This document shows positions 27,291 through 29,523 of a stretch of DNA of 64,000 nucleotides, piece by piece; the stretch's first letter is position 1; every line of letters starts with the position of its first letter. The notes under the pieces are model-generated. The model was not told the origin of the DNA. It searched no databases and was given only the letters and a program-made list of their open reading frames with translations. Source of the stretch: Micromonospora halotolerans (lineage in GTDB: Bacteria > Actinomycetota > Actinomycetes > Mycobacteriales > Micromonosporaceae); the NCBI RefSeq assembly GCF_032108445.1, contig NZ_CP134876.1, forward strand, positions 4,588,001 through 4,652,000. Direction: 5' to 3'. The position numbers were made by a program, and so were the translations under genes.

Positions 27291-27788
27291 TCAGCGCGGC
27301 GCGGGCCGGAGCAGGCGTACCCGGCCGGCGAGCTGGGCCGCGACGGCGCCGCCGGCCCGGGCGACGGCCGGCAGCCGGCGGGGCCGGGGGGCGGTGCGGC
27401 CGTCGTAGCGGATCGCCGCCTCGCGGACGGCCAGTTCCTCCGCGCCCAGCGGCGGCAGCGTGTCCCGGTCGCGCAGCTCCCGGGCCAGGTCCCAGCCGTC
27501 CCGGAGTGAGCCGTTGGTGGGGCGGCCGGCCGCCCAGCCGGCGAAGGTGGCCGGCCACGCGTCGCCGAGGCCGGCGGCGAGCAGCGGCCAGTGCCGGGCC
27601 ACGTCGCCGGCCCGCTTGCGCAGCAGCGCCCGCCGGGCCGCCTCCACCGGCGCGGTGGCGAACCCGGGTGGCAGCGGCCCGCCGGCCACCAGCGCCGCGA
27701 CCAGCTCCGCCTGCCGCCCGGCCAGATCCCCGCCGCCGGGCGCCTGGGCGTGGCGGCCGCCTGGCCCGGCCAGGTCCCCGCCGGTCAC
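27291..27788 (-). CDS. SCO6045-like partner protein of the DUF692 cassette
   Basis: A 165-residue, Ala/Arg-rich, mostly helical protein without signal peptide, membrane helix or recognisable catalytic motif. Conserved-looking parts are RQAELVAALVAGGPLPPGF and the central RRALLRKRAGDVARHWP. MNIO enzymes usually work with a neighbouring partner protein that presents the substrate, and this protein occupies that position. The GTG start at 27788 overlaps the TGA of the DUF692 gene (GTGA). Function is inferred from context only. Confidence 0.72.
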   Translation of the reverse strand: MTGGDLAGPGGRHAQAPGGGDLAGRQAELVAALVAGGPLPPGFATAPVEAARRALLRKRAGDVARHWPLLAAGLGDAWPATFAGWAAGRPTNGSLRDGWDLARELRDRDTLPPLGAEELAVREAAIRYDGRTAPRPRRLPAVARAGGAVAAQLAGRVRLLRPAPR

Positions 27789-28606
27789 GTGATCACCGGG
27801 TACGAGGAGGCGGCGGCCAAGGCGTCCAGCTCGCCGCGCAGCTCGGCGGCGGGCGGGTAGTGGCCGTCGCGTTCGAGCAGCAGCGCCGGGGGCCGGCGGC
27901 GGTCGCACAGCTCCCGGACCAGGTCGAGCACCTCGGCGGGGACCGGGTCGGTGTGCGTGTCGTGGTAGAAGCCGCCCTGCTCGGTGCCGCCGGCCACGTG
28001 CACGTAGGCGATCCGGTCCAGTGGCAGCCGTTCCAGCAGGGCGCCCGGGTCGCCGCCCCGGTTGCGGGCGTTGGCGTGCACGTTGGCGACGTCGAGCAGC
28101 AGCAGCGCCCCGGTGGCGTCGAGGATTTCGGTGAGGAAGTCCCCCTCGTTCAGCTCGTCGTCGGGCCAGTCGAAGAGGGCGGCGATCGGCTCCAGGGCCA
28201 GCGGCACCGGCAGCTCCGCCTGCGCCCGGCGCACGTTGGCCACCACCGCGGCCACCGCCTCCCGGCTGCGCGGCAGCGGCAGCAGGTGACCGGCCTCCAG
28301 ACCGCCGGCCCGGACGAACGCGATGTGCTCGCTGACCAGCGGCGCGTCCAGCGCCGCGGCCACGCCGGCCAGGTGCGCCACCCGGGCCGGGTCGACCGGC
28401 TCGGCGCCGCCGAGGGAGAGCTTCACCCCGTGAGGTACGACCGTGACGCCCCGCGCGCGCAGCTCGGCGAGGCCGTCGGGGAGCGGCCCGGCGGGAGCGA
28501 CCGTCTCGGCGACCACCTCGACGAAGCGCAGCCCGGGCAGGCCGGCCACGAAGCCGGCGATCTCCGGCCGCCAGCCGATGCCCACACCGGACGGTCCGGC
28601 CGTCAT
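27785..28606 (-). CDS. DUF692 / MNIO-family multinuclear non-heme iron enzyme
   Basis: A 273-residue TIM-barrel protein of the DUF692 (MNIO) family, the family of MbnB and TglH, which oxidatively modify cysteines in peptides. Candidate metal ligands are His59 (PHGVKLSLGG), His94 and His107 (SEHIAF, GHLLPLP), Glu139 (LALEPI), Asp172, Asn175 and His177 (LDVANVHANARN), His203 (VHVAGG), His215 and His218 (YHDTHTDP). The gene is sandwiched, with four-base overlaps on both sides, between a membrane protein with a Gly/Cys tail and a partner protein, which makes that tail the obvious substrate candidate. Confidence 0.9.
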   Translation of the reverse strand: MTAGPSGVGIGWRPEIAGFVAGLPGLRFVEVVAETVAPAGPLPDGLAELRARGVTVVPHGVKLSLGGAEPVDPARVAHLAGVAAALDAPLVSEHIAFVRAGGLEAGHLLPLPRSREAVAAVVANVRRAQAELPVPLALEPIAALFDWPDDELNEGDFLTEILDATGALLLLDVANVHANARNRGGDPGALLERLPLDRIAYVHVAGGTEQGGFYHDTHTDPVPAEVLDLVRELCDRRRPPALLLERDGHYPPAAELRGELDALAAASSYPVIT

Positions 28607-29523
28607 CCGCCGCACCCGCCACCGCCGCCGCAGCCGCCACCGCCGCCGCAGGAGCTGCCCCCGCCGCAGGAGCTCCCGCCCGCGTCGGAGCTGCCGCCGC
28701 CGCAGGAACTGCCCGAGCTGCCGCCCGACCCCATGGCCTGGCGCTGGATCTCGGCCTGCTCCGAGAAGCCCGGGTCCATGCTCCAGAGGGTGGCCGTGCC
28801 GAACAGCGCGACGCCCATGGCCGCGTCGGACGGGCCGTAGGTGGCGTACGCCGGTGCGGCGGCGGGGCGCAGCCAGGTGTGCTGGCGGCGCAGCTCGCGC
28901 AGCTCCCGGTCGGCCGCCCGGGTGCGCCACGGCACCCGCTGGAGCAGCGGGAACGCGATGAAGAGCGGCACGAGGGTGAGCAGCAGCCAGCCGGCGGGCC
29001 GGCCGTTGGAGATGCCGACGAAGGCCCGGACGAAGCCGACCGCCACCAGGGCCCCGAGGAGCAGCGAGCCGCGGCGCAGCGTCGCCCGCCGTTCCTTGTC
29101 CAGTGCCAGGCCACGGCGCACGAGCCCGTCGCCCAGCTCGTCGAGGGCGCGCCGGACCCACTCGTCCTGCGCCAGCTCCCGGGAGCGCAGCCCGCGGCCG
29201 GCCGCGTGGTGGATTGCCTGGTCCAGCGGGGTGAGCCCGGCCGGCAGCGGGCCGCCGGTGGTGAGCCGCCGGTCCGGGCGTACGCCGACCGCGCCGGCAC
29301 GGCGCAGGCCGCCGAGCGCGGTCCAGACGGCGAGCTGGTCGCCCCCGTTGAGGTACGCGACCTGCTGCGGCCCGAGCGGCCCACCGCCCTGCACCGGGGT
29401 GCCAGCCAGCGCGCGCCAGCGGTACACGAGGGTGCCGGCGACCAGCACGACGGCCGCCACGAGGTACCAACGGAGGAAGACGGGGCCGGGGATGCCCCAG
29501 GTGTCGCCCGCGAGGACGGTCAT
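28603..29523 (-). CDS. TIGR04222-type membrane protein with Gly/Cys-rich C-terminal tail
   Basis: A 306-residue membrane protein. One hydrophobic helix lies near residues 15-37 and two near 160-205; the rest between them is soluble and Arg-rich. The last 45 residues are Gly, Ser and Cys, with Cys at 274, 286, 292, 298 and 304, so the last four are exactly six apart. This matches the TIGR04222 domain family. Cys-rich tails beside MNIO genes are typical modification substrates, and here the tail would be membrane-tethered, perhaps for metal binding. Start at ATG 29523 has AGGAG five bases upstream. It overlaps DUF692 by four bases. Confidence 0.88.
   Translation of the reverse strand: MTVLAGDTWGIPGPVFLRWYLVAAVVLVAGTLVYRWRALAGTPVQGGGPLGPQQVAYLNGGDQLAVWTALGGLRRAGAVGVRPDRRLTTGGPLPAGLTPLDQAIHHAAGRGLRSRELAQDEWVRRALDELGDGLVRRGLALDKERRATLRRGSLLLGALVAVGFVRAFVGISNGRPAGWLLLTLVPLFIAFPLLQRVPWRTRAADRELRELRRQHTWLRPAAAPAYATYGPSDAAMGVALFGTATLWSMDPGFSEQAEIQRQAMGSGGSSGSSCGGGSSDAGGSSCGGGSSCGGGGGCGGGGGCGG

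Follow-up and report, generated by a model that had tools for sequence, protein, structure and literature searches.

The MNIO cassette of Micromonospora halotolerans

Which protein does the MNIO (DUF692) enzyme of Micromonospora halotolerans modify, and on which side of the membrane would the product reside? The question is raised by three minus-strand genes in a stretch of 64,000 nucleotides (NZ_CP134876.1, positions 4,588,001 to 4,652,000; the whole stretch is hereafter called the window, and coordinates are counted from its first letter) of a 6.96 Mb, single-contig genome. The first gene (28603–29523) encodes a TIGR04222 membrane protein of 306 residues, which scores 187 bits with NCBIfam TIGR04222.1 (cut-off 43, E 3e-55), was modelled with AlphaFold2 and is taken as the proposed substrate. 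It adjoins the gene of an MNIO of 273 residues (27785–28606; PF05114, 260.6 bits against a cut-off of 25, E 2e-77), which is followed by that of a partner protein of 165 residues (27291–27788), whose GTG start was assumed. Four-base overlaps join all three, and both this arrangement and the two family assignments agree with the original prediction for the locus. The best named homologues come from Micromonospora. We consider it probable that the cassette makes a protein-sized, membrane-held modified product, with the MNIO and its partner acting on the tail of the TIGR04222 protein.

The cassette belongs to a kind that has already been published, together with the same substrate proposal. Antoine et al. 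2025 (PMC12452194) collected more than 3,500 TIGR04222 proteins and proposed their C-proximal Cys tails as MNIO substrates, showing a model of the TIGR04222 protein of Micromonospora purpureochromogenes and a partner from Micromonospora matsumotoense. Passages of the same work report that more than a quarter of TIGR04222 proteins are without C-proximal Cys, that the MNIO is missing in one third of TIGR04222 genomes, and that the TIGR04222 modifications are still to be investigated. What is added here is a cross-count of Cys ladders against MNIO genes, the repeat basis of the Cys spacing, the TglI-like character of the partner and the case for an inward tail; among open PubMed Central texts, we found no statement of such a cross-count, of an inward tail or of a link to GPP34.

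Co-occurrence of the Cys ladder and the MNIO

The pairing was examined in 296 genomes of the Actinomycete class, with TIGR04222 over the cut-off in 84 and an MNIO in 76, a ladder being defined by two or more Cys in a Gly/Ser context within the final 70 residues. The TIGR04222 set comprised 108 proteins from the 84 genomes, with sub-cut-off matches left out and pieces of split matches not counted apart, and since only nine candidates were scored per genome, the set may be short of further copies. From the MNIO set, two pieces of a single enzyme (24 and 21 bits) were omitted, and one genome (G067) with a partial MNIO at a contig edge was scored as positive. Of the 63 TIGR04222 genomes with an MNIO, 47 have a Cys ladder, compared with none of the 21 without one; counted by genus, it is 22 of 23 against none of nine. 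Outside a single genus, g22, the figures are 38 of 40 (exceptions G160 and G211) against none of 20, and within family f16 they are 10 of 11 against none of nine. When proteins are counted instead, the ladder is present in 34 of 36 with an MNIO just downstream, in nine of 26 with one upstream (all from g22), in seven of 23 with one elsewhere in the genome, and in none of 22 from genomes without it.

A similar picture is obtained within Micromonospora, where the MNIO was found in 94 and TIGR04222 in 95 of 101 genomes, a near-universal occurrence suggesting a core function. All 30 MNIO-linked TIGR04222 proteins examined in the genus carry the ladder and a CGG end, whereas none of 29 unlinked copies carries a ladder. 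The linked set is that of 31 loci labelled as linked minus L232, which lies at a contig end with the MNIO on another contig; the unlinked one includes a genome of about 990 contigs with no MNIO detected (G323) and a divergent copy of 81 bits, and excludes two short fragments as well as tandem copies adjacent to the cassette. The window genome itself holds such an unlinked copy (L002 1462–2280; C1:5727140–5727829), located far from the MNIO, with a Lys/Arg-rich end and no Cys tail.

Some individual genomes of the genus deserve mention. L232 (G390) shows tandem TIGR04222 copies with a Cys ladder in both, and a second, stronger-scoring MNIO is present in five genomes (G318, G330, G346, G384 and G393). 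Another one (G314, given as 99% complete, about 20 contigs) has neither MNIO nor TIGR04222, which is consistent with joint loss.

The Cys tail and its DNA repeat

The tail of the window protein (residues 266–306; 28606–28728, minus strand) is made of Gly, Ser and Cys, ends in CGG, and is modelled with low confidence and no secondary structure. Its Cys lie at residues 274, 286, 292, 298 and 304, exactly where they had been placed originally, and three equal final gaps would be expected with p = 0.0045 for five Cys randomly placed in a 41-residue tail. However, the functional weight given to this exact six-residue spacing has to be withdrawn, since the period follows from an 18-bp tandem repeat in the underlying DNA (28607–28714, unstranded; Tandem Repeats Finder, which also gives periods of 3, 21 and 36 for the array). 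Two near relatives, L222 and L223, are shorter than the window tail by exactly one 18-bp unit, and the single 12-residue gap corresponds to a rung which reads Asp-Ala in the window and Cys-Gly in a genome of the same species.

The alignment of tails across homologues, one of the checks proposed at the outset, retains a more general pattern, but not the exact six. In the 111 tails that end in CGG, that of the window among them, the mean is 3.9 Cys and the range one to six; gaps of five and six residues jointly make up 60% of all gaps, Cys is followed by Gly in 89% of cases, and gaps of two residues or fewer amount to 0.3% against 18.9% expected. Ten listed proteins do not end in CGG: seven are labelled partial at the source, P0055 ends in FGG, and P0107 and P0108, which bear no such label, end otherwise. 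In other genera, tails also end in GGG, GGS or GGD. What is conserved is the Cys-Gly unit, a minimum distance and, within the genus, the CGG end.

The enzyme and its partner

The His, Asp and Glu ligands expected of a DUF692 enzyme are in place: all 57 rows of the MNIO alignment (56 distinct, the window enzyme being present twice both here and in a 54-row set) share H59, H94, E139, D172, N175, H203, D216, H218, E245 and D247, the iron-site residues having been aligned by sequence to 3bww and TglH chain 8hci_D. By sequence, the proteins of solved structure closest to the window enzyme are 3bww and TglH (8hci), with MbnB a weak match. In the MNIO FonB, Gadgil et al. 2026 (PMC13097082) describe reading of the EGKCG motif through Arg15, Arg16 and Phe250, and propose Asp249 as the base. 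Through the 3bww alignment, these four residues (Arg15, Arg16, Phe250 and Asp249) would correspond to R13, P14, G248 and D247 of the window enzyme. Position 14 is Pro in 44 of 54 MNIO rows and position 248 is Phe in none, and the apparent loss of the EGKCG-reading positions would fit a neutral Gly/Ser substrate.

Higher-scoring, bufferin-like MNIOs were also observed at three loci (L033, L034 and L035) beside another Cys-rich protein with the motif CMGLN(A/S)C, perhaps of the published adjamnio type.

The partner, which had been described as a protein of unknown fold, indeed finds no match of its own in Pfam or NCBIfam, but its model (predicted local distance difference test, pLDDT, 87) has its best structural match in TglI, which is known as an MNIO partner. 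Its homologues, among the matches listed, carry precomputed PF26136 (SCO6045-like C-terminal domain) assignments, which together with the model and the TglI match point to a PME-type 2 or PF26136-like protein. A sequence search against solved structures gave no match, and a Foldseek search with the model gave nothing significant. A partner is present at 18 of 20 loci from 19 genera. At one locus (L111 in G034), a TIGR04222 Cys tail appears to continue in the same frame, without an intervening MNIO, into sequence resembling the partner, as if the enzyme gene had been lost at this locus.

Membrane topology and the side of the tail

Three membrane helices are predicted in the TIGR04222 protein from the AlphaFold2 model (pLDDT 82) and from hydropathy, at residues 13–39 (29407–29487), 143–172 (29008–29097) and 178–195 (28939–28992), all on the minus strand; the first, modelled as a long helix, was taken as a membrane anchor. 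According to the established positive-inside rule, positively charged residues accumulate on the cytoplasmic flanks of membrane helices. Loop 1 has a mean of 15.6 Lys plus Arg and the part beyond helix 3 one of 7.3, against 0.2 ahead of helix 1 and 1.0 in loop 2, a bias which under this rule indicates an N-terminus outside and a C-terminus inside. Residues 229–247 carry charge in 56 of the 62 proteins compared (61 of the 108 proteins plus P0001, with the window's membrane protein present twice) and have low hydropathy, and residues 231–249 are modelled as two short helices.

The soluble part of the protein shows similarity to GPP34/GOLPH3, which has been described as a cytosolic peripheral protein, and 24 of 74 homologues of the membrane protein touch DUF2207_C; both similarities are no more than suggestive. 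No PF05719 (GPP34) match was obtained in P0001 at E values up to 1, and nothing significant was obtained either by Foldseek with the model or by sequence searches of the family against solved structures. Taken together, the charge bias and the model and fold indicate that the tail would most likely face the cytoplasm.

Proposed mechanism

The MNIO would oxidise the Cys-Gly units in the C-terminal tail of the TIGR04222 protein, this Gly/Ser/Cys stretch being presented to it by the partner; the likeliest product, by analogy only, would be a Cys-derived heterocycle such as 5-thiooxazole. For thiooxazole, a mass loss of about 4 Da per Cys has been reported (PMC13097082). The three membrane helices, together with a possibly GPP34/GOLPH3-like domain, would serve as a permanent anchor, so that the product stays on the membrane, and a tail located on the cytoplasmic side with the enzyme would need no export after modification. 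In its most specific form, which we advance only tentatively, the proposal is that of an inward-facing, membrane-fixed ladder of heterocycles formed from the Cys-Gly units, with a three-helix GPP34/GOLPH3-like domain as leader and a core function in the genus, in contrast to known MNIO systems, whose products are soluble or exported.

Alternative explanations and exceptions

Several observations weigh against this proposal, and three other explanations were considered. The first concerns the side of the membrane: the tail could be modified in the cytoplasm in the same way and then translocated to the outside, as follows from Antoine et al., who place TIGR04222 tails in the periplasm (PMC12452194). 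Such a course would agree with the net negative charge of the tail (0.9 Lys plus Arg against 3.4 Asp plus Glu), as an outside tail might have, with the mild hydrophobicity of residues 229–247 in a Micromonospora-type alignment (peak 1.43), and with the more hydrophobic segment after helix 3 in linked proteins (1.08; charged in 20 of 24). The flank charges and the broken, often charged segment point instead to three helices with the C-terminus inside, as does the similarity of the soluble part to a cytosolic peripheral protein, and we regard an outside tail as possible but rather unlikely. As for the chemistry, the EGKCG-reading positions of FonB are not kept, so that the product need not match that of FonB. 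To our knowledge, no experiment has shown a modified TIGR04222 protein.

A different objection is that the tail may not be the substrate at all, its Cys being plain thiols that buffer metals or redox state and another protein being the target of the enzyme. This would be in line with genus g22, which by its SCO6045-like architecture appears to be Streptomyces and in which 14 of 23 MNIO genomes have no Cys ladder. In 13 of these 14, a tailless TIGR04222 protein is encoded within 3.5 kb of the MNIO (the other, G187, has them on separate contigs); a short second TIGR04222 copy occurs in five, four of them with a single Cys. Three more genomes have an MNIO and no TIGR04222 over the cut-off. Missed Cys-tail copies can be rejected as the cause, because the 17 genomes yielded no additional match above the cut-off when searched anew with more complete candidate scoring. 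The ligands are kept in 54 MNIO rows below 300 bits, several from g22, which makes a different target for the enzyme probable in this genus. Tailless homologues beside a retained enzyme, which the original prediction had named as evidence against it, are thus found in g22 and hardly elsewhere. Five g57 genomes, in which the genes of the ladder protein and the MNIO do not adjoin, point in the same direction, and against the proposal stand also a Cys-less linked copy in G160 and the 12 of 74 genomes with an MNIO of at least 90 bits that show no TIGR04222 over the cut-off. The genomes without MNIO are, moreover, not independent, most belonging to families f19 (10 of 21) and f16 (9 of 21). A tail that is not modified would, however, hardly explain why the ladder is missing from all 21 of them, why in Micromonospora it separates linked from unlinked copies throughout those examined, or why the genes overlap by four bases, and we find this explanation unlikely. 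The original idea that the tail is the MNIO substrate is favoured by co-occurrence, both class-wide and within the genus, with g22 as its exception. Finally, the ladder could be functionless, a mere slippage product of a GC-rich repeat, as the 18-bp units and the one-unit difference between relatives might suggest; but of the 22 proteins from genomes without MNIO, 10 have a comparably Gly-rich tail (55% Gly) and still no ladder, and the CGG end and the minimum spacing are kept, which makes this very improbable.

Other features of the atypical loci were also recorded. In g22, the partner domain of L068 is in one frame with the enzyme, and at L014, L016, L027 and L030 the tailless TIGR04222 gene is separated from the MNIO-partner region by an additional conserved gene (about 280 residues, DUF4142-like by eye). 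In four of the 12 genomes without TIGR04222 over the cut-off (L135, L137, L138 and L140), an open frame beside the MNIO ends in a Cys-Gly ladder.

Possible function

A last question is what such a tail would be used for. Neighbouring genes (80 proteins, judged by the 25 families listed of 69 matched) are mainly lineage housekeeping, such as PEPCK, PheRS and arginine biosynthesis. No metal-homeostasis family occurs among these 25 listed families, and metal genes as conserved neighbours were rejected on this basis, which is not exhaustive. The chelator role suggested originally, perhaps for copper or another metal, gains no support from them. The only expression hint comes from SCO6045, which in Streptomyces coelicolor is reported to rise 3-fold with peroxide in an HbpS-SenS-SenR-dependent manner (PMC4991794), and which, judging from the Pfam name, would be an MNIO-partner protein. 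Our best guess, weakly held, is that the tail buffers redox state or metals at the membrane.

If the proposal is correct, MNIO substrates extend beyond small peptides to resident membrane proteins, and a near-universal gene set of Micromonospora defines a function open to simple genetics. The Cys-less paralogue in the same genome and the one-genus exception offer natural controls, and the side faced by the tail is a directly testable question.

Comparison with known systems

The closest systems are the TIGR04222-MNIO-PME-type 2 clusters of Antoine et al. (PMC12452194), with the same three components, also in Actinomycetota, and a Cys-bearing C-terminal Gly/Ser tail. They differ in that their tail is placed in the periplasm, whereas here it is placed inside, and in that, in the passages concerned, the partner gene is seemingly missing from many of them, in contrast to its presence at almost all loci in our sample. 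Bufferins and captophorins, which combine an MNIO and a PME-type 1 partner with DUF2282 or EGKCG peptides and whose precursors bear a Sec signal peptide, likewise rely on an MNIO acting on repeated Cys units, and copper binding has been reported for their products (PMC13097082). However, the window partner gives no DUF2063 match, there is no EGKCG motif, the enzyme scores 176.2 bits, below the bufferin maturase cut-off of 310, and the positions aligned with Arg16 and Phe250 of FonB are Pro and Gly. With the TglH/TglI and MbnB/MbnC pairs, the window enzyme shares the MNIO residues, and the partner model resembles TglI, but the enzyme's score of 25 bits is far below the cut-off of 325 of the MbnB model and, in contrast to both methanobactin and TglH/TglI, the proposed substrate is a membrane protein of 306 residues.
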